Shown here: piece after piece, positions 1,838 through 26,475 of the stretch | How positions within the stretch are numbered: the stretch's first letter is position 1 | Layout of the letters: each line of letters begins with the position of its first letter | Assembly (NCBI GenBank): GCA_025350815.1 | Contig: JANXXE010000026.1 | Span: 1 to 40,236, forward strand | DNA length: 40,236 nucleotides | Direction of reading: 5' to 3' | Source: Myxococcales bacterium | GTDB lineage: Bacteria; Myxococcota_A; Polyangia; Fen-1088 | Made by a program: the position numbers and the translations under genes | The notes under the pieces: model-generated | Databases searched by the model: none | Told to the model about the DNA's origin: nothing | Seen by the model: only the letters and a program-made list of their open reading frames with translations

Positions 1838-3188
<1,351 letters not shown>

Positions 3189-3202
<14 letters not shown>

Positions 3203-8400: not shown

Positions 8401-11400
8401 ATGGTCTGGCAAGGCAGAATGCATCGTTTCCCCCGACCGCCCCCGTGCATCCGCGTCGCCCTGCCGCTGCTGTGCGGCGCGCTTGCCCTGGTGGCGGCGC
8501 GTGCGTCCGAGGCCCGGGTCAACCCGCTGACCATCATCAAGCGGCAGATCCACAAGCCCAACATGCTGGTGGTCCTCGACACTTCCGGCTCGATGACGGG
8601 TGTACCGGGCAACGAATTCGAGTACGAGGCTGCGACGAACAGCTATCCGCTGGAGGTTGGTGTCGACTGCGACAACGGCGTGGACTGTCGCGCGGCGATC
8701 ATCCGATCGCGCTGCAACGGCACGGGACGGCCTTGCACCAACGCGGGCGACTGCCCGGGACAGATCTGCACCGTCCTCGGTGCCGCCGAGCCGCTCGGTA
8801 TGTGTCGGGCCGCCCAGACGCTGTGCGGGCGCGACGCTGATTGCACACAGGACGGCGACAGCTGCGGCGCGCCGGTGTCGCGGACGGTGATCGCCAAGCG
8901 ATCCCTATCGCGCATCATCACCGAGAACTACAAGATCATAAATCTGGGTTTGATGACCTTCTACCAGTCCGGGTATTTCCCCTACTACCGGGTTAACGCC
9001 GGCACGACGGCAACCACCGAAGCGCGCTTTTTCGGGCGCGGCGACAACGAGGACCGTGGCTGCTTTGACTCGCACCACGGCCCGACGCCGACCTGCGACT
9101 ACCAGGGGCTGACATACACCCTCGCACCGACGCCAAACAGCCAGTACGAGGTGAATCAGCGGGGCCGCAAGAGCTACCACGACATGAACTTCTGCGGTCA
9201 GTGGTGTGCAGTGCCGGGTATCGGCCTCGGCAAGTGGCGCGGCAGCTACTACGTGCGCACCACGACGGCCGGCAGCGCGACGACGACGCTGGTGCCACAG
9301 GCAACGTACACCGGCAAGAACATCACGGTGGGCGGCGTTCCGTATCGCTACTTCACGCCGCGCAATGACTACTACACCTACAACGCCCAGCGGGACCCGA
9401 ACATCAACCCACCGATACAGGTGCCGAACTGCGGGGCGTCCTGTAGCGCCACCTGTGGCGGCCGCTGGGACGATCAGCTGGCGCCCTTCCTCAATCCGAC
9501 GGCCACCGACGACACCGCCCGGACCAACGCCGACCGAATGTTGGACTGGATGGAAAAGGCGGCCAATGGCGGACTCGTCACCTACGGCGGAACGCCGTCG
9601 GGGTGCACGCTTGAAAACGATGTCACGCGCAGCCCGAACAGCAGCGCCTACGACTACATGTTCAAGGTCCGGACGGACGACACACTCAAGTGCCGCAAGA
9701 ATTTCGTGCTGTTTATCACCGACGGCGAAGCCAACGGGCCCGGGGACGACGGCTGCGATCTGCCCGCCTGCGCCGCCGCCGATCCCATCGCCGCGCACTG
9801 CACCTGCCGCGCCGTCAAGGCGGCCTGGCACCTGCGCAACAACGATCGCGTCCCCGGCGAAAAGCTGGATGTCCGCACCTTCGTCGTCGGCTTCTCGAAA
9901 GACGCCGCGTCCGGGGTGGGCAGGACCATCAACGACAACATCGCCCGCGCCGGTGGAACGGATCATTCATTCGCCGCCAGCAACGAAAGCGAGCTGGCCC
10001 TGGCCATCCAGTCCGCCATTTACGAGGCGGTCAAAGGCAGCTATGCGACGTCGCCCGCGACCTCGTCCTCCGGCACGCAGTTGCCCTTGACGATCCAGGC
10101 GGGCAAGTACGTCCTTGATTCGCGTGTCGATTTCCCCTCGTGGCAAGGGCACCTACTGGCCTACGACATTTCGTCGACGCCACCGACGCTGGCGTGGGAC
10201 GCGGCGACGCAGCTTCAGGCAATGAACTGGTGGGAACGCCGGGTTTATATCGGCATGCGCGACGGGACGGTCATCAAGGTAGACGTCGATTCCGGGACCA
10301 AGGCCGTCACGAACAAGGCGACGCTGTCCGCGCTGGGTCTGGGCACCAATCCCGACGAGGCCGAGCGCATCGTGCGCTTCATGCTCGGGGATCCGGCGTC
10401 GAAGAACCCCGCGATCCTGGGTGCGATCGTCAACTCGACACCCATCGACGTCGGACAGCCGGGCGACAGCCCCCTGCCCGGCGGGCACGAATTCTTCCTG
10501 GCGTACCGGATGCGCCCTGGTCTTACCTACGTTGGTTCAGACGACGGCATGTTGCACGCCCTGTTTACAAACCCGACCGCCGTTGCCGGCAAGACCTACG
10601 CCCCGGGCAGCGAAGCCTTCGCTTACATCCCCCACGACATGCTGCCGGTGATCACCAAGATCCACAGCCAGGGCGGCCAAATCGCGGACCCGGCCCAGCA
10701 CATCTTCGGGCTGGCGAATTCGGCCAAGGTAAAAAGCCTGTGCGTCAGCAACTGCACGGACGCCGCCAGCGCCGTGTGGAAGACCCTGCTTGTGATGCCC
10801 GAGGGATACGGCGGGTCGGACACCTTCGTTCTCGACGTCACGAATCCGGTCAGCGACGCCGGCTTTGCCGACCCACCCGTCGCGCCCGTGTGGCACACCG
10901 AGGACGCGTTCGTAAAGCCGACCTACGATGCGGCGATGGGACTCAGCGTGTCTTTACCGGGCTTCTTCTTCAACAAGACAGATACCCTGGACGACCATCG
11001 CCTTGTCTTCGCATCCGGCTACAGGACCGACGGTCCGGCCGACCAGGGTCGCCAGATCATCATCGCTTCGGCGGCCACCGGCGCGATCCTGGATCGCAAG
11101 ACGGCTGTGCCGCCCGGTAGTTGCGCGCAGGAATACACGCTGCTCGCCGACGTCGCCACCGCCAAGGACTTCGCCCGCGGCGAACGGGCCAAGTTACTGG
11201 GCGCCTACGTCGGCGACACCTGGGGCGGGCTGTGGCGCTATTCGTCGACGGGGCTCAGCTCGATAGCCAATCTCGGCTGCCAGGACCCGCTGCACTTCGC
11301 GCCGACCGTGGTCCAGCTTGATCGCGACGACCCGACCAATTTTTCGCGCGAGACGTATCTGGTCCAGGTCACGAATTCCGCCATGGATGAGGTGACGGCG

Positions 11401-11934
11401 GACTTTGCAGAGCCATCCAAGATGGTCATCATGAAGGAAAAGGCGGACATCAATGGACTGCCCGTCCCGGATCCGACCTTCGGCGCCGCCGGAAAGATCG
11501 TCCTCACGGTGGGGACCCCGGGCCTGTGCGGGCGCACCGGCCCCACCGGCGCCTGCGAGCAGGTCTTGCCCGCGAACGCCCGGCCGATGGGCACCCCCAT
11601 GGGGCTGCTCAAGCGCGACGGATCGGGCTTTCAACTGATGTCGCTGTGGTACACGCCCGACACCGCCGGCTGCACCAAGGGCAAGACCTATCTTGCGCTG
11701 CACGAGGTCGTCGGTGGTGCCGCGGTCCAAAAACAAGGGATGGAACTTGCCTTCGCCCAGGAACCCATCGCCAGCGCCGTCGTGGTGGCAGGACACATCT
11801 ACGTCGTAAGCTCCGCTGGCCTCGTCAATATCGGGGGCGAAATCAATGCCACCTACGTCACGGGCTCAAGCCAGTCGCCCACTTCCGGCGCCGGGAGCGG
11901 TCGCTTCAACATGCTCGGCTGGACCGAGATGTAG
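8401..11934 (+). CDS. PilY1/PilC-like protein with von Willebrand A domain
   Basis: An 1177-residue exported protein with a signal sequence (hydrophobic 'VALPLLCGALALVAARASEA', about 19-38) and an N-terminal VWA domain with MIDAS 'DTSGS' (D60, S62, S64) and a later 'FITDGEANGPGDDG'. A Cys-rich insertion of ten cysteines interrupts the VWA domain after the first strand (about 93-160). The C-terminal half is the PilY1/PilC beta-propeller: 'GLTYVGSDDGMLHAL', 'EAFAYIPHDMLP', 'VMPEGYGGSDTFVLDVTNP', 'LLGAYVGDTWGGLWRY'. PilY1 proteins act at the tip of type IV pili in adhesion and surface sensing. AAAAGG (8389-8394) lies six bases before the ATG. No other pilus genes are nearby, so the partner system must be elsewhere. 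The gene ends 14 bases from the end of convergent aroA. Confidence 0.85.
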   Translation: MVWQGRMHRFPRPPPCIRVALPLLCGALALVAARASEARVNPLTIIKRQIHKPNMLVVLDTSGSMTGVPGNEFEYEAATNSYPLEVGVDCDNGVDCRAAIIRSRCNGTGRPCTNAGDCPGQICTVLGAAEPLGMCRAAQTLCGRDADCTQDGDSCGAPVSRTVIAKRSLSRIITENYKIINLGLMTFYQSGYFPYYRVNAGTTATTEARFFGRGDNEDRGCFDSHHGPTPTCDYQGLTYTLAPTPNSQYEVNQRGRKSYHDMNFCGQWCAVPGIGLGKWRGSYYVRTTTAGSATTTLVPQATYTGKNITVGGVPYRYFTPRNDYYTYNAQRDPNINPPIQVPNCGASCSATCGGRWDDQLAPFLNPTATDDTARTNADRMLDWMEKAANGGLVTYGGTPSGCTLENDVTRSPNSSAYDYMFKVRTDDTLKCRKNFVLFITDGEANGPGDDGCDLPACAAADPIAAHCTCRAVKAAWHLRNNDRVPGEKLDVRTFVVGFSKDAASGVGRTINDNIARAGGTDHSFAASNESELALAIQSAIYEAVKGSYATSPATSSSGTQLPLTIQAGKYVLDSRVDFPSWQGHLLAYDISSTPPTLAWDAATQLQAMNWWERRVYIGMRDGTVIKVDVDSGTKAVTNKATLSALGLGTNPDEAERIVRFMLGDPASKNPAILGAIVNSTPIDVGQPGDSPLPGGHEFFLAYRMRPGLTYVGSDDGMLHALFTNPTAVAGKTYAPGSEAFAYIPHDMLPVITKIHSQGGQIADPAQHIFGLANSAKVKSLCVSNCTDAASAVWKTLLVMPEGYGGSDTFVLDVTNPVSDAGFADPPVAPVWHTEDAFVKPTYDAAMGLSVSLPGFFFNKTDTLDDHRLVFASGYRTDGPADQGRQIIIASAATGAILDRKTAVPPGSCAQEYTLLADVATAKDFARGERAKLLGAYVGDTWGGLWRYSSTGLSSIANLGCQDPLHFAPTVVQLDRDDPTNFSRETYLVQVTNSAMDEVTADFAEPSKMVIMKEKADINGLPVPDPTFGAAGKIVLTVGTPGLCGRTGPTGACEQVLPANARPMGTPMGLLKRDGSGFQLMSLWYTPDTAGCTKGKTYLALHEVVGGAAVQKQGMELAFAQEPIASAVVVAGHIYVVSSAGLVNIGGEINATYVTGSSQSPTSGAGSGRFNMLGWTEM

Positions 11935-16718: not shown

Positions 16719-17297
16719 TCACTTTTTCTTGGGCTTGCGCCGCGTCTCATTGAAGGGCACGGACTTGGGCGTCGACAGCTTCAGGACCGCCTGGTCAACC
16801 GCCTGCTTGATGGCCTGGGTCAGCACCTCGGTTAGCATCGTCGCGCCCTCTTGATCCAGGCGGCGCTCGGCCACCTCCGCCTCTATGCCGGCTTCACCTT
16901 CACCGGAAAATGCCAGCTTTTCCGTGGGCAACGTCGTGCCGAAAACCGAAACCTTTACGTTGAGCGCCAGTTGCTTGAGCCGGCCGCCCGGCTTGGGCGG
17001 CAGCAGCTCGCGCCGTATCTCATCGATGCGCAGAGAAAGACTGAACCCGTCGAGCCTGCGGCGCTTGAGCTCGGCCAGCAATTGACCCGGCTCGGTGGCG
17101 CCACCGACATCGGAGGTGAACTCTGACCGGGCCGCCAGATCTTTGGCCAGCAGGTCGCGGGCCGAATCCTTGACCGCCGCCTCCGTCGCGGGTGGGGCTT
17201 TGACCTCGACAACTCTGAAATAGTACCGGGGCGCTTTGGCGACCCCGTCGGCGGCCGCCAGCAGACCGACAAGGGCCACGACACTAATCGGGGGCAT
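16719..17297 (-). CDS. Secreted protein of unknown function
   Basis: A 192-residue product with a short signal ('MPPISVVALVGLLAAADGVAKA'), then a region starting 'YYFRVVEVKAPPATEAAVKD', helical 'ARDLLAKDLAAR', beta-strand-rich middle 'SLSLRIDEIRRELLPPKPGG' / 'LALNVKVSVFGTTLP', and a very basic tail ('RRKPKKK'). GAGGT lies five bases before the ATG, a normal ribosome-binding site. The shape resembles small periplasmic proteins that parse a numeric exponent or compute from two arguments, but I recognise no family. It lies 58 bases upstream of the glutaredoxin gene on the same strand; the gap shows no terminator. Confidence 0.6.
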   Translation of the reverse strand: MPPISVVALVGLLAAADGVAKAPRYYFRVVEVKAPPATEAAVKDSARDLLAKDLAARSEFTSDVGGATEPGQLLAELKRRRLDGFSLSLRIDEIRRELLPPKPGGRLKQLALNVKVSVFGTTLPTEKLAFSGEGEAGIEAEVAERRLDQEGATMLTEVLTQAIKQAVDQAVLKLSTPKSVPFNETRRKPKKK

Positions 17298-17552: not shown

Positions 17553-19310
17553 ATGGTGACCCTGACCCTGACCGAAAAAGGTGGAGACGCCAAGCAGCTG
17601 TCCTTCGAGAAGGACGAGGTGACAATCGGCCGGGTGCAAGGGAACGACGTCGTGCTGGCCAAAGGCAACGTGTCCAAGCGCCACTGTCGCATCTTCACGC
17701 AGGACGGTCGCTATTCCGTCGAAGACCTCAAGAGCACGAACGGTACGTACATCAACGGCCGCAAGATTGGCGAGACCACGGTGGTCTCCGCCACCGACAA
17801 GGTCTACGTGGGCGACTTCATCATCAAGGTGGAAAGTGCCGCCCTCGCCGGCAGCGTCTCGTCACCGCCGATCGGTCCCGAGGCCGGATCGCTGAGCGCG
17901 GCCATCCCCAGACGACCGCCGCCGCCGCCGCCCGCCCGTTCCACGAGGGATCAGCGTGTCGTCGAGCCGACCGCGGACGAATCTGCCGAAACGCCCGCCG
18001 TGTCCTTGCCCAAACGCCCGACCGCGCCACCGCCGCCGCCGCCGCCCCGGCGCGAGGCAAAAAAGCCGACGCCCATCAGTGCGCGTGACGAAGACGATGA
18101 TGAGGCCCTGCCCCCGTCGCCCTCGGAAGTGGATATCGATGAAGAGGCACTGGGCGTCAAGCCGCCGCGCATGACGGTGCCCGCGCTCAACAAGGCGACG
18201 ATGTCCCTGTCCGATGATGACAAGGAAGACATCATCACCGCCTCGCGCGATCGCGGTCCCCTGACGGGGCCCACGCTGGTTCCGCGGGACAACAGCAGCG
18301 CCTGGCTGCGCCAACTGCTGGAATCGGATGGCATCTCCGCCGTGTTCATCAGCGGCCCGCAGACCGTCGAGGTCGAGCGCGACGGCCAGCGCGAAACCGC
18401 CGCTACGGCTCCCGATCCGGCGGCCCTCGTGGAGGCCGTCCGCACGCTTGCAAGCCGCGCAGTGCCGCCGCCCGCACCGGACGCCGGCCTGGTGAACGTC
18501 ACATTGCCCGACGGCGCCCGTCTGACCGCCCTGTTTCCGCCGCTCAGCGACCAGCTAACAGTCGCGCTGCAGAAGGTAACGCCCGTGCAGAAGAGCTTCG
18601 CCGAGCTCGTCGCTGACGGCATCGCGTCGCGCGAGATGCAGCAGGTCTTGGAGGCCTGCATTCTGCAGCACCGCAGCGTCCTGGTGGCGGGCGATCACCA
18701 CGCGGCACGCGCCGTGATGCACGCCCTGGCCTCGTCGCTGCCGGCCCGCTCGCGCGTGATCTGCCTGGCCGAAAGCCTGGGTCCCCCCAGCGGCGCAACC
18801 GCCTGGATCCGTCTGACGCCGGACGCCCGGGTACCCGAACTGCTGACGACCGCCGCGGCCTTGCGCCCGGATTACCTCATCACCGAAGTCCGCGACGCCA
18901 CCGCAGCGGCCGATGTCGTGCATGAGGGGACCCTCGGCCACCAGGGCGGCATCATCGCCTCGCTGTCGGCCCGATCCGCGGGCGACGCCCTGACCCGTGT
19001 GCACGCGCTTGCCGGCTCGTCGCTGGGCGCACGCGCGGGTCTGGCGGACCTGGTTGCCGCCGCCTTCGATGTCGTGGTCTTCGCGACCAGTCTCGGGGAC
19101 GGCAACATGAGGGTACTCGAAGTCAGCGAGCCCAAGGTGGATGCCGACGGCCGCCTGACGACGGAGACCTTGCTGATGTGGAAGGCCGACGGCCCCACAG
19201 GTGACGGCGGGGTGTCCGGCCGCTTCGTCGCCACCGGCGCCTCGTCGCGACTGGCAGCGACGCTGGGTGCGCGCGGGGTTCAGCTTCCCGCGTCCGTCTT
19301 GCGCAAATAG
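17553..19310 (+). CDS. FHA domain fused to degenerate CpaF/TadA-like secretion ATPase
   Basis: The product has 585 residues. An N-terminal FHA domain (about 22-92: 'TIGRVQGNDVVL', 'VSKRHCRIF', 'LKSTNGTYING') would bind phosphothreonine peptides. A Pro-rich, acidic linker follows (110-245). The C-terminal half (about 235-585) aligns by eye along its length with CpaF/TadA ATPases: N-domain-like 'AVFISGPQTVEVERDG', arginine-finger region, Walker-B-like 'LRPDYLITEVRD' (E445) and the C-terminal 'GRFVATGASSRLAATL' motif. The Walker A site has become 'AGDHHAARA' (380-387), without GKT, and the His-box 'TTIHANSP' is now 'ASLSARSAGD'. Nucleotide hydrolysis is therefore unlikely. Inference: a phospho-dependent scaffold, perhaps for a Tad-like secretion or gliding apparatus. 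SMI1-TPR starts one base after its stop. Confidence 0.85.
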   Translation: MVTLTLTEKGGDAKQLSFEKDEVTIGRVQGNDVVLAKGNVSKRHCRIFTQDGRYSVEDLKSTNGTYINGRKIGETTVVSATDKVYVGDFIIKVESAALAGSVSSPPIGPEAGSLSAAIPRRPPPPPPARSTRDQRVVEPTADESAETPAVSLPKRPTAPPPPPPPRREAKKPTPISARDEDDDEALPPSPSEVDIDEEALGVKPPRMTVPALNKATMSLSDDDKEDIITASRDRGPLTGPTLVPRDNSSAWLRQLLESDGISAVFISGPQTVEVERDGQRETAATAPDPAALVEAVRTLASRAVPPPAPDAGLVNVTLPDGARLTALFPPLSDQLTVALQKVTPVQKSFAELVADGIASREMQQVLEACILQHRSVLVAGDHHAARAVMHALASSLPARSRVICLAESLGPPSGATAWIRLTPDARVPELLTTAAALRPDYLITEVRDATAAADVVHEGTLGHQGGIIASLSARSAGDALTRVHALAGSSLGARAGLADLVAAAFDVVVFATSLGDGNMRVLEVSEPKVDADGRLTTETLLMWKADGPTGDGGVSGRFVATGASSRLAATLGARGVQLPASVLRK

Positions 19311-19311
19311 C

Positions 19312-20397
19312 GTGGGTCTCGCCGCGCCCACGTTCTTCGAGGGCTTCCGGCGCGCTCTCGCAGAATTTCCTGCGGGCCTGGTGCGCGCCGGCGCGCCCGC
19401 GCCCGATGACGCCGTCCTCGCGGCGGAAGCCAGCCTCGGCGCGCGCTTGCCCGACGACTACGCTGCCTTCTTGCGCTCGTTCGACGGCGCCGACCTGTTC
19501 CACGAATCCACAATCATCTACGGGGTGGCCCCCGGATGTTTCCGGTCGGTCATCGACGCGAACCGGGAACCGCGGCCCGCGGGCGTGCGGGACACGGATC
19601 TGATCGTGGCCGAGGCGATCGGCGGTGATCGATTCGTTCTGGCCTCCGATGGCGCCGGCCTCGCACGGGTCTTTCGCGTGCGTCCCGACTCGGATGAGCG
19701 CTGGCTGTCGAGCCCCTCGTTCGCCATCTGGCTGGACGCCGTGCTTGCGCGCGAGCGCGTGGTCTACGGCGACGACGGTGAATTCCTTCTGGACGCCTTC
19801 GACCCCGACGGCGAGGAGATAACGCCGCGCTTTGCTCTCAAGCAGGCCGAGCGCGCGGTCCGCCGCGATCCAGGGTCGGCCGACAGTCACCAGGATCTCG
19901 GCATAGCGTTCCGCCGTCTCGATCGGATGGACAAGGCCGCCGCCGCTTTTGCAAAGGCCGCCGCGCTGGATCCCGGCAACCCATGGCCCTGGTTCGATCT
20001 GGGGCGCGCCGAGCTAGACCTCGGGCAACCGGCCGAGGCGGCGATCTCGTTTCGACGGGCCGCCGACGTCCTGCCCGCGCGCGAAGGCGCCCGGCTGTGG
20101 ATCTGGTCGGCACGCGCCGCGACCCTGGCTGGAAATTCCGCCGAAGCCGCCGTGGCGAAACAAAAAGGCCTGGCCCTGCACCCCGAACTCGTCGCCGAAT
20201 TGCGCCGCGCGGCCGAGACCGCCGACGCCGAGGACGACCCGACCGCGAAGGACGAGGCACTGGCCCTGGTCGCGCTTTTCGAACCCGCCCCGCGGCTGCG
20301 ACTGCCGATCCTGGGCGCGACTACGGCAGCGCCAGTTCGCCGACCCCAAGACACGGCCCCGCCGCGTCCTCGCCGCGCAGGGCGGCCGCGATCCTGA
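19312..20397 (+). CDS. SMI1/KNR4 (SUKH)-TPR protein
   Basis: GTG at 19312 starts one base after the stop of the FHA gene, giving 361 residues; the open frame reaching back to 19201 lies inside that gene. The N-terminal half matches the SMI1/KNR4 (SUKH) fold: 'LGARLPDDYAAFLRSFDGADLF', then 'DTDLIVAEAIGGDRFVLASD' and 'SPSFAIWLDAVLARE'. SUKH proteins often act as immunity or protein-interaction modules. The C-terminal half has at least two TPR repeats ('ADSHQDLGIAFRRLDRMDKA', 'NPWPWFDLGRAELDLGQPAEA'). The tight coupling to the FHA protein suggests a shared complex. Its last 77 bases overlap the 3' end of the convergent gene, where the product becomes Pro/Arg-rich, so the precise C-terminus is less certain. 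Confidence 0.75.
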   Translation: MGLAAPTFFEGFRRALAEFPAGLVRAGAPAPDDAVLAAEASLGARLPDDYAAFLRSFDGADLFHESTIIYGVAPGCFRSVIDANREPRPAGVRDTDLIVAEAIGGDRFVLASDGAGLARVFRVRPDSDERWLSSPSFAIWLDAVLARERVVYGDDGEFLLDAFDPDGEEITPRFALKQAERAVRRDPGSADSHQDLGIAFRRLDRMDKAAAAFAKAAALDPGNPWPWFDLGRAELDLGQPAEAAISFRRAADVLPAREGARLWIWSARAATLAGNSAEAAVAKQKGLALHPELVAELRRAAETADAEDDPTAKDEALALVALFEPAPRLRLPILGATTAAPVRRPQDTAPPRPRRAGRPRS

Positions 20398-21802
20398 CGA
20401 TTCCCGCCGGCGCCTCGACGGTGACCGTGCGATTCCCGTTGAAGGTCTCGCTGTCCACCGTCAGTGACTGCAGTTCGCGCCGGATGCCTGCGCCGTCTTC
20501 CGCGTAGATGCGCAAGGTCCCGCGCCTGACGTCCGGGGCGCCGGGCTCGACGGCGACGGACACCTGCCGCCCCGACGCTGAAAGAACCAGCCCCTGCCGG
20601 AACAGATGGTCGACCAGGCCCGCAGCGTACGCGCCGATCTGGGGCAACAGCGCCCGCGCGCTGTCGGCCATCACGGCGGAATCGAGGAAGAAACGGACCC
20701 GATCCCTGGTCCGTTCGTACGCCAGGGTCCGCCGGCCCTCCAGCATCACGTAACCGCGCTTGTCCGGCTGCCGCAGCTCCAAACGGGCCACTGTCGGCAG
20801 CGGCAACCGCAGGGATTCGCGTGCCTCGCGCGTGACGTCGCGGGTGGTGGTGCCGGCATCGATATAGACCGTCTGCGGCACTGTCCCCTCCGAGAAGAAT
20901 CCCCGGTTCGCGCGATCTGCCAGGCCCTGGCCGTCTGCCGCCGTGAAGAATGCCTCCAGCGATGGGCGCCGCACGGACCCGGAGGCGGGCCTGGGCACGC
21001 CGCTGCGCCCGTAGTGGGCGGCGACGTAGCGCTCAAATCCGGACGACTGATCCCAGGGACTGGCACTCTGCTGGGCCAAAAACGTCGCGCGAAAGTCGTT
21101 ACGCACGTGGGCCGGATCGCCCGCGTCTTCCAGCACGGCCAAGATTCCGCCCACGGACAAAAGTGCCTGCACCAACGCCGCCTCGCGCGTCGCCGGCTCG
21201 GATGCGGCCACGGCTTGCTCGAGATTCGCCGTGAAGACGGCCAGCCCCTGGTCATTGCGGGGTGAGTCCAGCCACGCCAACGATGGCTCGCCGGTCAGAT
21301 CGAAGGCGGTACCCGTGGCAAGTTGCCGCAGGCCGGCGCCGCCATCGACCGCCAGCCGCAACACGTGCACCGCCCCAGAAAGGCCGGCGTCATCGTGCAA
21401 GCCCGTGCGTTTGATCGGGTCGAAGAAGTGGTTTCGCCCCCGCTCCGGAGGTGTCTTGGCCAGCACCGCGCCCGTGACCACCCACGACATCGCGGTCGAT
21501 TGGCCGTCGGTCCCCGGGCGGTAGCCACCCGCCGGATCAAGGGCGCCGAATCGGGCCCACAACACCCGCCGCGCCTGCGGATTCATCAGACGAGAATTGA
21601 TCTGCAAAGGTTCGAGCAACCCGAGCGGCCTGCCCAGCCGCCGCGACAGAACGCGGTGTAGTGACGACGCGAACACCGCCTGCTCGGTTAGTCCGGCGTG
21701 CGTCGTGGCGGGGTCGAAGGCACGCGCCGCCGGCGCCGAGGCACACGCGACAAGGACGGCGACTGTGACGGACACCAGTCGACGAGGCCGGCGATCGTTC
21801 AT
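20321..21802 (-). CDS. Exported zinc-dependent phospholipase C-like protein
   Basis: A 493-residue protein with a signal peptide (cleavage near 'APAARAF'). The first ~240 residues show the S1/P1 nuclease-zinc phospholipase C pattern: His in 'TTHAGLTEQAV' (H35), 'RNHFFDP' (H125), 'GLHDDAG' (H136), and the metal-binding helix 'LAVLEDAGDPAHVRNDF' (E225, D229, H232, D236). The C-terminal ~200 residues form a beta-rich domain without a recognised family. Inference: a secreted or periplasmic hydrolase of phosphodiester substrates; substrate unknown. ATG at 21802 overlaps the stop of the upstream lipoprotein gene (ATGA), so the two are a coupled pair. Its 3' end overlaps the convergent SMI1-TPR gene by 77 bases. 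Confidence 0.75.
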   Translation of the reverse strand: MNDRRPRRLVSVTVAVLVACASAPAARAFDPATTHAGLTEQAVFASSLHRVLSRRLGRPLGLLEPLQINSRLMNPQARRVLWARFGALDPAGGYRPGTDGQSTAMSWVVTGAVLAKTPPERGRNHFFDPIKRTGLHDDAGLSGAVHVLRLAVDGGAGLRQLATGTAFDLTGEPSLAWLDSPRNDQGLAVFTANLEQAVAASEPATREAALVQALLSVGGILAVLEDAGDPAHVRNDFRATFLAQQSASPWDQSSGFERYVAAHYGRSGVPRPASGSVRRPSLEAFFTAADGQGLADRANRGFFSEGTVPQTVYIDAGTTTRDVTREARESLRLPLPTVARLELRQPDKRGYVMLEGRRTLAYERTRDRVRFFLDSAVMADSARALLPQIGAYAAGLVDHLFRQGLVLSASGRQVSVAVEPGAPDVRRGTLRIYAEDGAGIRRELQSLTVDSETFNGNRTVTVEAPAGIVRIAAALRGEDAAGPCLGVGELALP

Positions 21803-22971
21803 TTTGTTGGTCCCGTTGTGGGTCCCGGCGCTGGCGTCGCGGGCGCCTCGGCAGGCGGGGTCGCCGGTGCGGCCGGCAGCTCACTTAGACGGCTTTCAAT
21901 TAGCTTGGCCAGTTTCAACAGCGAGCCTGCGTCCGTGCACTGCGAGACGCCGCAGGTAACGGACACGACCACGCCCCGCTCGCGCGACAGGAACGCCAGC
22001 CCGATCACGTCGCTGTTCTTGGCCCGCAATGACGAATCGGCGATCTCGTCGCTGCGCTTGGCACCGGGAAGCTCGGCCAGAAGCTTGGCGTACTGGGTCT
22101 CGGCGCCCACCTGCCCCAGCCGCCACACGCGCACGCCCACGTCGTAGGACTCGGGCTTTCCCTGCGCCTTGAAATGGCGGCTGTCATAGAACTCTGTGGT
22201 CGGCAGATCGCTGAGCTTGAGAACATCAAACGCGCCCGCGTAGCCGGTCACGGCACGCAGCTCATCTTCGGAAAGGACAGTCGAAACATCCAGCGAGGCC
22301 GGACCGGCGGCGACGGGCGCAACAGGCGCAACAGTGCCGGCCAGGCTCGTCCCCGGTGCCGCACCCTCAAGCTCCAGGCTGGCTGGCTGTAGCTCCCACG
22401 CGGAAGCCGCCTTGACCGCCGCCCCGCCGCCCAGGAACACCAGATGGCGGTGTCGCAACAGCGAAGGCCGCCATTTTTCCAGCCGCACCCGGTTGCCCCG
22501 CTGGCTGAAATCGCGACGAACCTCACCCCCCGGGAAGCGGCGATCGCTGCGCCAGCCCACATGGCCCCGGTGGTAGACGATCAACGTAAACCGCCGCACG
22601 CGGCTCGATCCGCCCGACGGCAACTCCTGCAAAATGGGGACGCGATAACGACCATCAGCGGTCGTTTCCATGACGACTTCCTGGGCGCCATCCGGGCCCG
22701 CAAGGCCGATGCCGCGCTCGAACGCCCACGATGCCGCGACGACGGCGCCCCCGACCGGACGATCGGTCTCCTCGTCCACGACGATTCCGTCAAAAGGTCC
22801 CAGCAAATCACCGGGGGTGAGGGAATCGAAGCGCGTCGGAAAAGGCGCCTTGTCCACGAGTGGACCGCAGGCCGGGGCCAGGGCGACCAGGACGGGCCAC
22901 AGCCAGACCCCCCGCGACCGGGCGGCGGCTTGTTTGACGCGTCTGGGGAGACTTGCTATTTGTTGAAGCAC
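21799..22971 (-). CDS. Predicted lipoprotein of unknown function
   Basis: GTG at 22971 gives 390 residues with 'MLQQIASLPRRVKQAAARSR', a hydrophobic stretch and a lipobox-like 'VALAPAC'. The open frame extends much further upstream, but that part runs over the divergent zinc-ribbon gene and looks like shadow coding. A carboxypeptidase-like beta-sandwich may follow: 'GIVVDEETDRPVGGAVVAAS' and 'TTADGRYRVPILQ' are typical of CarboxypepD_reg-like domains. The C-terminal third ('VGVRVWRLGQVGAETQYAKLL', then 'VVVSVTCGVSQCTDAGSL') and a Pro-rich tail are not recognised. No good ribosome-binding site is visible. It is coupled to the zinc phospholipase-like gene by an ATGA overlap, and the two may act on the same outer-envelope substrate. 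Confidence 0.65.
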   Translation of the reverse strand: MLQQIASLPRRVKQAAARSRGVWLWPVLVALAPACGPLVDKAPFPTRFDSLTPGDLLGPFDGIVVDEETDRPVGGAVVAASWAFERGIGLAGPDGAQEVVMETTADGRYRVPILQELPSGGSSRVRRFTLIVYHRGHVGWRSDRRFPGGEVRRDFSQRGNRVRLEKWRPSLLRHRHLVFLGGGAAVKAASAWELQPASLELEGAAPGTSLAGTVAPVAPVAAGPASLDVSTVLSEDELRAVTGYAGAFDVLKLSDLPTTEFYDSRHFKAQGKPESYDVGVRVWRLGQVGAETQYAKLLAELPGAKRSDEIADSSLRAKNSDVIGLAFLSRERGVVVSVTCGVSQCTDAGSLLKLAKLIESRLSELPAAPATPPAEAPATPAPGPTTGPTK

Positions 22972-23130
22972 GAAGGGTGAGCGGCGCGCCAGATGTTGAA
23001 AAGCACCGTGTTGCTCGCCTGTTAGCAGAGGATCGGCTCGCTTGCAATCGCGACCGCACCTGAAGAGCCGACCAATCATGAAAGGTTTCTGCCAAGCCCA
23101 CAGGGCGCCCCCCCTTCGCGCGGTACGGCG

Positions 23131-23973
23131 ATGGTGAAATGCGCCCAGTGCGGGCAGCCCGCGGCCGCGTCCGGGGCCTTCTGCCAGTTTTGCGGCGCCA
23201 GTCTCAAGGCCCAGGCCGCCCCAGCGCAGATCCTGTCCTGCCCTGCATGCCAGGCGACCAACCCTGCGGGCACGAATTTTTGCCACGCTTGCGGCCGCGG
23301 TCTGCTGGCGCCGCAACCCGTGACGGTGGCACCGCCGGCCCGCCTGGTGGTGGTTCGCCGTGACGGCACGGACGGCCCTTCCTACCCGATCACGCAGGCG
23401 CAGTTCGACATAGGCCGCACCGAAGGGGATCTGCTGTTCGACGATCCCCACATGGCGCCCCGACACGCGCGGATCATCGAGCGCGGCGGTGCACGCATCA
23501 TCACACCGCTCGAAAACCGAAACGGCGTCTACCTGCGCACGCGCGAGGCTGTCGACCTCCACGATGGCGACCACGTGCTCATCGGAAAGGAAGTCCTGCG
23601 TTACGACCTGCTACCGGACGTGGAGCGGACGCTGCGCGCGGCGGTCGAGCACGGCGTGGTGCTGTTCGGCACCCCGGTCAAGGCCCCCTGGGGACGCCTG
23701 CGGCAAATGACCGCCGCCGGTACGTGTCGGGATGTCTACCACTTGATCCGCAGCGACATCGTCCTTGGCCGTGAACAAGGCGACTTGGTTTTCTCCGACG
23801 ACGAATTCCTTTCCCGGCGACACGCGCAGCTGCAATTTCGCGCCGGCCGTGTCACCCTGCAGGACTTGAACAGCTCCAACGGGACCTTCGTGCGCCTGCG
23901 CGCCCAGCACGCCCTGTCCCCAGGAGAAATGATCCGGATGGGAGACGAGTTGCTGCGGTTCGATATAGGATAG
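23131..23973 (+). CDS. Zinc-ribbon protein with two FHA domains
   Basis: The 280-residue product opens with two zinc ribbons: C4/C7 with C18/C21, and C37/C40 with C51/C54. Two FHA domains follow. FHA1 (about 70-160) has 'FDIGRTEGDLLFDDP', 'APRHARIIE' and 'NRNGVYLR'. FHA2 (about 185-280) has 'DIVLGREQGDLVFSDD', 'LSRRHAQLQ' and 'LNSSNGTFV'. The FHA2 residues for phosphothreonine binding (Gly-Arg, Ser-Arg-Arg-His, Ser-Ser-Asn-Gly) are intact; FHA1 has Ala-Pro-Arg-His in place of Ser-x-x-His and is probably weaker. The ATG is 10 bases before the PP2C gene's TTG (by stop), and the next gene again encodes a zinc ribbon plus kinase. Likely role: phospho-dependent adaptor of this kinase-phosphatase set. 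Confidence 0.88.
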   Translation: MVKCAQCGQPAAASGAFCQFCGASLKAQAAPAQILSCPACQATNPAGTNFCHACGRGLLAPQPVTVAPPARLVVVRRDGTDGPSYPITQAQFDIGRTEGDLLFDDPHMAPRHARIIERGGARIITPLENRNGVYLRTREAVDLHDGDHVLIGKEVLRYDLLPDVERTLRAAVEHGVVLFGTPVKAPWGRLRQMTAAGTCRDVYHLIRSDIVLGREQGDLVFSDDEFLSRRHAQLQFRAGRVTLQDLNSSNGTFVRLRAQHALSPGEMIRMGDELLRFDIG

Positions 23974-23983
23974 GGCGAGCCTC

Positions 23984-25240
23984 TTGAGCGACCAGCCAGC
24001 CCCACCCACGGACAGTGCCCCGGACATCGCGATATCGGTCTACGGAAAGACCGACGTCGGCCTGATCCGGGAACACAACGAGGATAACTTTCTGATAGCC
24101 GACGTCTCGGCGGGGACGAGGACGAACGATCCGAAAGAGACAGTGGCCGTCCAGCTGGGGAACAAGGGCGTCCTGTTCCTGGTCTGTGATGGCATGGGCG
24201 GCGCCGCCGCTGGCGAGGTGGCCTCGCAGATGGCCGTCGACTCGATAGCGGGCTCGCTCGCCGCTGCAGAGCCGCTCGGCCGGGATCCGTTCGCGCGCCG
24301 CCTGCGCCGCGCCATCGAGGACGCAAACGACAAGATCTACGCCCAGTCGCGCGACAACCAGAGCGAACGCGGCATGGGCACCACCTGCACTGCCGCCGCC
24401 CTGGTCGATGGAACGCTGGTGATCGGGCAAATCGGCGATTCGCGCTGCTACGTGATGCGGGCTGGCCGGCTGAGCCAGGTGACAAAGGATCAGTCGCTTG
24501 CGTGGCAGCTAATCGAGGCGGGGGCAATGACCGCCGAGGAGGCCAAGGCCTTCGAGCACGCCAACATCATTCTGCAAGCGCTGGGCGTGCAAGAGCGGGT
24601 CGAGGTCGTCCTATCCCAGGTCGACCTGCGCCGCGGCGACATCGTCGTCCTGTCGTCCGACGGCCTTCACGGGCCAGTCAGCGACGAGGAAATTTCTCAG
24701 ATTCTGACCGACGAGCCCGACATCAAGCGCGCCTGCGATCGGCTGATCTCGCGCGCGCTCGAACGTGACGGCCCCGACAACGTTACGGTGGTGCTGGCCC
24801 GCGTCGACGGACCCAGCCTGGCCGAGCCCAGCGAAACCGACACCGTTGGTTTCACGCCCTACGATCCGGGCGTAGACCCGTCCGACACCCGCCGCAGCCA
24901 GCGGCACGAAGCCGTCGAGAAGGTCACCGTCGAAGTCACCATTCCCAAGGACGTCATCCGCATGACGTCGGGCCAAGGGCAAGGTGGCGACGGCGCCGGC
25001 GGTACCCTGGGCAGTCCCGCATCAGCGACGTCTCAGACAGGGACCGAGCCGCGATCGGTGTTGACGTTCGTCTTCCTCGCGATGCTGGCCGCCGCGGCGG
25101 GCATCATCTTCATCAAGTGGGACCGTGACCGCACAGTCGAGGGCCAGACCGGCCAGACCACGGCGACACCGATGGCCCCGGCCGCCGCCGAGCCGGCCGC
25201 GCCGGCCGCCCCCCCCGCGGGCCCCACCCCAGCGCCGTGA
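23984..25240 (+). CDS. PP2C-family Ser/Thr protein phosphatase, membrane-anchored
   Basis: The catalytic domain (about 14-275) of this 418-residue PPM/PP2C phosphatase has all metal-binding motifs: 'GLIREHNEDNFLIAD' (E33/D34), 'FLVCDGMGGAAAGEVAS' (D69), 'GTTCTAAALVDG', 'QIGDSRCYV', 'LSSDGLHGPVSDEEI' and 'DGPDNVTVVLARV'. It removes phosphate from Ser/Thr and usually antagonises the Hanks-type kinase encoded with it. A variable region, one transmembrane helix ('FVFLAMLAAAAGIIFIKW', about 362-379) and an Ala/Pro tail follow, so the catalytic domain is cytoplasmic and the tail outside. TTG at 23984 lies 10 bases after the upstream stop. The stop overlaps the kinase start in a GTGA. Confidence 0.93.
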   Translation: MSDQPAPPTDSAPDIAISVYGKTDVGLIREHNEDNFLIADVSAGTRTNDPKETVAVQLGNKGVLFLVCDGMGGAAAGEVASQMAVDSIAGSLAAAEPLGRDPFARRLRRAIEDANDKIYAQSRDNQSERGMGTTCTAAALVDGTLVIGQIGDSRCYVMRAGRLSQVTKDQSLAWQLIEAGAMTAEEAKAFEHANIILQALGVQERVEVVLSQVDLRRGDIVVLSSDGLHGPVSDEEISQILTDEPDIKRACDRLISRALERDGPDNVTVVLARVDGPSLAEPSETDTVGFTPYDPGVDPSDTRRSQRHEAVEKVTVEVTIPKDVIRMTSGQGQGGDGAGGTLGSPASATSQTGTEPRSVLTFVFLAMLAAAAGIIFIKWDRDRTVEGQTGQTTATPMAPAAAEPAAPAAPPAGPTPAP

Positions 25241-26475
25241 ACCCCGTCGGTATCGGGATGTCCTCCTTCTCCTGCCCCGCCTGCCAAGCCGCCTGCGAGC
25301 CTGATGCCCGCTTCTGCGGCGCCTGCGGCAAGCCCATCCTGCGGAGGGCCTCCCCGGCGGCCGCGACCGCCGAGGCCCCCGCGAAAACCATCGTCAGCCC
25401 CCCGCGACACACACCCCTGCCAGCGCCCGTCGCAGCACCGGCGCGCCCCGCCCCCGCCCGCGCGGCGCCGGCCCCCGCGGCGCCCGCCCCTGCACCACGA
25501 GCGGTGGCGCCCGATCGCTTGATTGGCCGCACGCTCAACAACCGCTACCTGCTGGAACGGAAGATCGGTGAAGGCGGCTTCGGTGCCGTCTTCGAAGGCA
25601 AGCAAATCGCCACGGGCCGCCAGGTCGCGCTGAAGATCCTTCACCCCCACAACGTCTCCGACGCCACGGTTGTCGCGCGCTTCCGCCGCGAGGCCGAGGC
25701 GTGTTCCAAGCTGCGCAGCACGCACACCGTCACGATCTACGATTTCGACGAGACCGAGGACGGCGTGCTGTACCTGGCGATGGAACTGCTCACGGGCCAT
25801 AGCTTGCAGCACATACAGCGAACCGAAGGGCCGCTGGATCCGCGACGCGTGCTGCACATTCTCGATCAGGTGGCCGAGGCCCTGGGCGAAGCGCACGCAC
25901 AGGGCATCGTTCACCGCGACATGAAGCCCGAGAACGTGATGGTCGATAGGCGCGGCGACGAGGACTTCGTGAAGGTCCTCGACTTCGGCATCGCGAAGAT
26001 CGTCTCGGGCAACGCGGCCGGCAAGGCCCCCGCGCTGACGGCCATCGGACAGACGGTCGGCACGCTCGAATTCATGTCGCCCGAACAGCTGCGGGGACGG
26101 CCGCTCGACGGACGGTCCGACATCTACGCGCTGGGGATGATGGCGTATGAGATGCTGACGGGACTTCTGCCCTTCCACGGCGCCAAGAATTCGACCGAGA
26201 TCATTCAGTTCCACCTGCAAAAGCCCGCGCCGCCGCCCTCGCGCATGACCACCGAGAAGAAGATCCCCGGACCGGTCGACGCCGTCGTCCTGAAGATGGT
26301 GCGCAAGCTGGCCGAAGAACGGCACGCCAACGCCGCCGAATTGCGCCAGCACATCGCCCAGGCCCTGACGGCCACCGATTCGCACGCCGTACGCTGGGAG
26401 ATGGTGCGCGTGGTGGCAGTCGTGGGCGGTCTGGTCTTGCTGGTGGCGACGATTCTGCTGCTGGCCAGTCGCTAG
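25237..26475 (+). CDS. Hanks-type Ser/Thr protein kinase with N-terminal zinc ribbon
   Basis: The 412-residue product begins with a zinc ribbon (C13/C16 and C27/C30). A long Ala/Pro linker (about 38-92) leads to the kinase domain (about 96-370): '[10 protein letters not shown]' loop, 'VALKIL' (K133), '[10 protein letters not shown]' (D228), 'LDFGIAK' (D249), '[13 protein letters not shown]', '[14 protein letters not shown]'. All catalytic residues are present, with the RD signature of activation-loop-regulated kinases. A C-terminal transmembrane helix ('[18 protein letters not shown]') anchors it without an external domain. GTG at 25237 overlaps the phosphatase stop; ATG at 25258 is an alternative. 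With the PP2C and zinc-ribbon FHA genes upstream it forms a three-gene phospho-signalling operon. It ends three bases from convergent lepB. Confidence 0.95.

Follow-up and report, generated by a model that had tools for sequence, protein, structure and literature searches.

An FHA domain fused to a degenerate CpaF ATPase in Myxococcales: a secretion-motor fold probably turned into a phosphothreonine-signalling scaffold

In the contig JANXXE010000026.1 of a Myxococcales bacterium (the window is the whole stretch of DNA analyzed, 40,236 nucleotides), one gene joins an FHA domain to a complete CpaF fold from which the residues of the ATPase have been lost. The dead fusion is widespread, is under selection, and occurs in a natural series that runs from 8/9 to 0/9 motor residues; the order in which motor chemistry is lost, and what stays, is therefore directly testable. 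Since the dead fusion is kept class-wide under selection, often without a working relative in the cell, it has probably been turned into a signalling scaffold. Our preferred reading, to which we give a probability of roughly 0.6, is that of a pseudo-motor, a former secretion motor that would now act as an ATP-independent scaffold reading phosphothreonine and that would descend from a live Kil-like FHA-CpaF. For the class as a whole, we put at even odds that a secretion-motor ATPase left a Tad/Kil-like machine, lost its chemistry stepwise in several lineages, and became an ATP-independent platform for phosphothreonine signalling that now stands alone, sometimes as the sole CpaF descendant, with intermediates surviving. 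A further suggestion is that, in these bacteria, a re-used secretion-motor fold serves phosphothreonine signalling.

The open frame of 585 residues (with an ATG start) has GC contents of 0.70, 0.53, and 0.83 at the three codon positions, a coding composition, and is a genuine gene (Table 1). The motifs quoted in the preliminary description (GDHHAAR, LRPDYLITEV, SAR, and GRFVATG) are all present in its translation, the last at residues 556–562. In the FHA domain, the residues of the phosphothreonine site (G26, R27, S41, H44, N63, and G64) are all in place.

Table 1. Features of the fusion gene and of its neighborhood, in positions of the window.
Feature	Position	Strand	Basis and remarks
FHA-pseudoCpaF gene, 585 aa	17553..19310	+	Coding frame; relatives with the same architecture
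FHA domain, residues 1–95	17553..17837	+	PF00498 6.3e-17 (match at residues 23–87); 68/68 conservation
Proline-rich linker, residues 96–246	17838..18290	+	Sequence; dN/dS 0.29–0.42, faster evolving
Pseudo-CpaF region (N-terminal domain and ATPase-like domain), residues 247–585	18291..19307	+	TIGR03819 2.3e-18; PDB CpaF 3e-42; model and Foldseek
Ex-arginine-finger segment LVNVTLPDGARLTALFPP	18489..18542	+	D215 to N, R217 to T, R223 kept
Ex-Walker A loop, GDHHAAR, residues 380–386	18690..18710	+	Shorter by one residue, Lys lost
Ex-Walker B strand LRPDYLITEV, residues 437–446	18861..18890	+	R347 to A, E357 to V
Ex-His box, HAN to SAR, within residues 470–477	18960..18983	+	Alignment to CpaF
Divergent 192-aa protein, conserved upstream neighbor	16719..17297	-	Signal-peptide-like start by eye
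SUKH and TPR protein, next downstream	19201..20397	+	PF09346 1.6e-8 and TPR; start as listed lies within the fusion gene, the actual one probably further downstream
Conserved neighbor, no family assigned, 493 aa	20321..21802	-	No Pfam, NCBIfam, or PDB match
Conserved neighbor, lipoprotein-like by eye	21799..23574	-	Frame as listed runs into the FHA gene and is probably shorter in reality
Zinc-ribbon protein with two FHA domains	23131..23973	+	PF00498 4.5e-23, PF12773
PP2C-type protein phosphatase	23984..25240	+	PF13672 1.2e-15
Ser/Thr protein kinase	25237..26475	+	PF00069 2.5e-50; PknB-like 5.9e-89, under that model's cut-off

The C-terminal half had been assigned by eye to the CpaF/TadA family, and profile searches and the structural model agree on that assignment. 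TIGR03819 (TadA) matches residues 249–524 below its curated cut-off (66.5 bits against 373), TrbB and VirB11 match the region more weakly, and Pfam T2SSE gives no match to it. Against the PDB, a profile built from the window protein and its same-family relatives finds CpaF (8rkd and 9e24) at 3–5e-42, and the single sequence finds 8rkd at 8.8e-13. The CpaF-like region is predicted with a pLDDT of 91.9 and a pTM of 0.88, and Foldseek ranks TadA/CpaF first for this model in the PDB (E 1.1e-25; TM 0.80 to 9e24). The full-length CpaF fold, N-terminal domain and ATPase domain together, is thus kept. On the other hand, identity to Caulobacter CpaF is only ∼21% in the structural alignment, and a stretch of ∼9 residues following the Asp-box region is absent from the window protein.

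Functional residues are numbered here as in Caulobacter CpaF, checked against PDB 9e24; the roles of the nine positions come from PMC12019362 and from the alignment. Only R223 is kept in the window protein; D215, R217, K287, E308, E312, R347, E357, and H382 are replaced, so that the set of intact Walker A, Asp box, catalytic Glu, His box, and arginine fingers is not retained. In the predicted structure, strand 130–134 is followed by a single residue and then by helix 136–148, with the P-loop absorbed into the helix. The control model of an intact, live Kil-like relative has a five-residue loop (247–251) between strand 242–246 and the following helix. As judged from these replacements and from the model, the fusion protein should be unable to bind or hydrolyze ATP in the normal way, in line with the initial suggestion, drawn from the altered Walker A loop and His box, that ATPase chemistry should be lost.

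Fusions of this architecture are known. In Myxococcus xanthus, KilF is the FHA-CpaF ATPase of the Tad-like Kil prey-killing apparatus; it is described as the machine's working ATPase, and its deletion abolishes predation (PMC8460266). The window protein shares with KilF the N-terminal FHA domain, the CpaF hexameric-ATPase domain, the presence of neighboring FHA proteins, and the phylum; it differs from KilF in that the catalytic set is missing, the genome has no other CpaF, and no secretin gene adjoins. PMC12019362 defines class III CpaF by architecture (FHA, disordered region, CpaF) among CpaF orthologues that are mostly betaproteobacterial. The domain order is that of the window protein (FHA, linker, CpaF), but catalytic loss is not part of the definition in the text consulted, and K287, E312, R347, E357, and H382 are gone here. 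The claim that no FHA-pseudoATPase fusion had been described thus holds for one part only: FHA-CpaF fusions are published (KilF, class III), whereas the open-access literature searched appears to contain no description of the dead version, although subscription papers on it may exist. The same literature gave nothing relevant on a type IV pilus pseudo-ATPase, a secretion ATPase with degenerate Walker A, or an FHA-VirB11 fusion, and no report of a type IV filament motor with a catalytically dead descendant.

Searches of the genome collection and of the class show FHA-CpaF fusions to be common throughout it. All 17 live rows of the alignment (four Kil-like and 13 CpaF-type, most of the latter without FHA) keep 9/9 residues. 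None of the remaining 55 orphan FHA-fusion rows, window included, does so, and they range from 8/9 to 0/9. H382 is gone in nearly all of these 55, and most lack K287. On a quick tree, whose deep branches are long, parsimony requires at least three changes for each of the two positions. Sorted by motif state and neighborhood, the copies fall into four groups, with a few others besides. Group A comprises the Kil-like loci with 9/9 residues (secretin adjoining in L038, L039, and L102; L085 has a short upstream contig). Group B is the window's locus type, common to Kofleriaceae and others, with 8/9 down to 0/9. Group C is a Polyangiales-type lineage that includes Sorangium cellulosum, where the gene lies beside peptide deformylase, RibD, and fatty-acid genes and 0/9 to 4/9 residues are kept. 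In group D (4/9 to 5/9), a small membrane protein gene adjoins, and in some of the loci the fusion lies directly upstream of pilMNOPQ.

The ancestor would have been a live Kil-like FHA-CpaF motor that became separated from its secretin gene. Kil-like loci (L039 and L102 among them) have a secretin and FHA-CpaF, the latter followed by a protein of double-FHA/TM/TPR type. In five eroded group B loci (L068, L070, L074, L077, and L081), the pair of FHA-CpaF and double-FHA protein occurs with no secretin adjoining, and the double-FHA proteins align with that of L039 over about 365–465 residues (3e-33 to 4e-23). The persistence of the pair without secretin is consistent with descent from one half of a Kil-like cluster. 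No double-FHA/TM/TPR-type protein adjoins the fusion gene in the window lineage. The C-terminal half of these proteins (L102:8803-10899, L039:11848-13806, L068:12324-13751) has few or no Pfam matches. Erosion would then have been stepwise, with the His box affected in nearly all copies, followed by E357, the change of K287 to R, the P-loop, and the arginine fingers.

No Tad genes were found among the window genes scanned and no secretin gene beside the fusion gene. Pseudoenzymes are well known among kinases. Because neither the catalytic set nor the locus of a motor is present, because catalytic residues are lost while the fold is retained under purifying selection, and because the descent is from FHA-CpaF, we class the protein as an FHA-CpaF variant that is a pseudoenzyme.

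An FHA-CpaF with the P-loop Lys changed to Arg occurs directly upstream of the small membrane protein gene and pilMNOPQ in L057, L058, L062, L066, and L067 (∼10001–18400 in L067). Through such pilMNOPQ-adjoining copies, phosphorylation may feed into the type IVa pilus machine. The broader proposal, in which the fusion regulates the type IVa machine and not Tad by docking on PilM/PilN-type platform proteins or on pilus motors and relaying a phosphorylation signal, draws on this arrangement in group D and on the window genome, where PilM and several T2SSE-family ATPases occur with no other CpaF. We hold it to be rather unlikely. The pair of fusion and membrane protein has no detected adjoining pil genes in 4/6 genera of that family (one contig is possibly cut there), no strong PilM match was obtained in G015, which carries the fusion, and in the window lineage the fusion gene does not adjoin pil genes. 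A general link to pilMNOPQ was accordingly set aside as supported in part only: what constantly accompanies the fusion in group D is the small membrane-protein gene rather than pil genes. The window itself contains a PilY1-like β-propeller protein of 1177 residues (8401–11934; Pfam 8e-6, just under cut-off); it was rejected as a pilus link, given the sub-cut-off score and because it was not seen in the related loci.

Still less probable is a protein driven by nucleotide, in which the altered pocket would bind ATP or another nucleotide without a canonical P-loop. Orthologues at related loci keep K287 and three of them (L055, L092, and L093) keep 8/9 residues, so that ATP binding may persist in part of the family. 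In the window clade, however, only a Gly–Asp dyad is invariant at the former loop and the residues after it vary; no alternative conserved P-loop was found there, and such a consensus is rejected on that ground. The single residue left between strand and helix in the model also speaks against it.

Returning to the pseudo-motor, its maintenance was followed in 18 same-family genomes, of which 15 carry the gene (the window and 14 others). The 14 relatives show 33–45% identity over the ATPase-like region, have no internal stops, and have the same losses in their ORFs, which makes the dead fusion more than a chance event. The complete same-family copies likewise agree in architecture and in these losses. 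The full gene, FHA plus ATPase, is seen in 12/14; for the other two, the contigs are truncated or have gaps (L013/L033, L023). dN/dS was computed with four close relatives at unsaturated dS (0.3–0.6). The dead domain gives 0.15–0.20 and the FHA domain 0.08–0.17, compared with 0.14–0.19 for the neighboring PP2C gene and 0.12–0.19 for PP2C and the 20321–21802 gene together. These values are akin to those of ordinary neighbors and place the dead domain under purifying selection. A decaying relic heading for loss, for which one could cite the strong divergence of the ATPase domain and the three same-family genomes without the fusion (two with no match at all, the third with a live CpaF only), is hardly credible in face of these dN/dS values and of the absence of internal stops, and a pseudogene is rejected on the same two grounds.

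The FHA domain would have stayed nearly fixed during the erosion of the ATPase. Among relatives outside the window's clade, its identity to the window protein is 46–65%, versus ∼20–31% for the ATPase domain, and the residues of the phosphothreonine site are conserved in 68/68 FHA rows. The conservation of G26, R27, N31, S41, and H44 is biased, since the collection scan was seeded with FHA peptides containing them; that of D58 to N68 is unaffected.

No other CpaF was found in the window genome (G000, 97.7% complete), where the remaining T2SSE-family proteins are not CpaF-type, in profile and in single-sequence searches alike. In three single-contig genomes (G298, G299, and G300), the P-loop-less FHA fusion is the only CpaF-level match; their placement in the Sorangium group is deduced from position and frame length, which match the named Sorangium loci L088, L091, and L109. 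In Sorangium cellulosum So ce26, a cultured carrier, the gene lies in L088 at ∼6.243–6.245 Mb. The preliminary description had proposed that the protein, as a decoy or scaffold, could join a CpaF hexamer or block it, and this cannot be the general function where the dead fusion occurs with no other CpaF in the cell. A decoy or regulatory subunit that would insert into or block a live hexamer when phosphorylated partners are present could appeal to the shared fold and to the live CpaF found also in 4/15 same-family carriers, but the dead state is identical with or without a live CpaF, and the lack of any other CpaF in G000, G017 (96% complete), and the Sorangium-group genomes leaves this reading with very little credence. 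Two different P-loop-less FHA-CpaF copies occur in some genomes (L227 and L235 in G106; L229 and L234 in G093).

The scaffold reading also draws on the neighborhood (Table 1). In the window's family, a module is held together that consists of the fusion gene, the SUKH-TPR gene (absent in part of the family), the two conserved genes on the opposite strand, and the genes for the zinc-ribbon FHA protein, PP2C, and the Ser/Thr kinase. The same module is found in L064, L071, and L093, and in L074 and L095 as far as the contigs extend. LepA-LepB flanks it on opposite sides in the window's family and in the L064/L071/L093 set, so the module is retained while its flank changes; some of the conservation of neighbors simply reflects the usual slow pace at which chromosomes rearrange. 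Adjacent genes thus encode a writer and an eraser of phosphothreonine together with two kinds of reader, and it is from this arrangement that phosphorylation-dependent scaffolding is proposed. Phosphothreonine sensing by the FHA domain is plausible from its conserved site residues and from the adjoining kinase and phosphatase. Carried on a flexible, proline-rich arm, the FHA domain would bind phosphothreonine that a Ser/Thr kinase writes and a PP2C phosphatase removes, with the adjoining genes as the obvious candidates; partners would assemble on the CpaF-like body, a platform that would need no ATP and is possibly oligomeric. In group C, with its housekeeping neighbors, and in group D, the kinase module does not adjoin the fusion gene, and the kinase link may hold for the window lineage only.

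Two of the neighbors and a more distant gene deserve a remark. SUKH domains are better known from toxin-immunity proteins. In the 20321–21802 protein, the pattern of His and Asp residues recalls by eye the folds of zinc-dependent phospholipase C or S1/P1 nuclease. Farther upstream in the window (1838–3202), an XPB/Rad25-type helicase with a damage-recognition domain is encoded.
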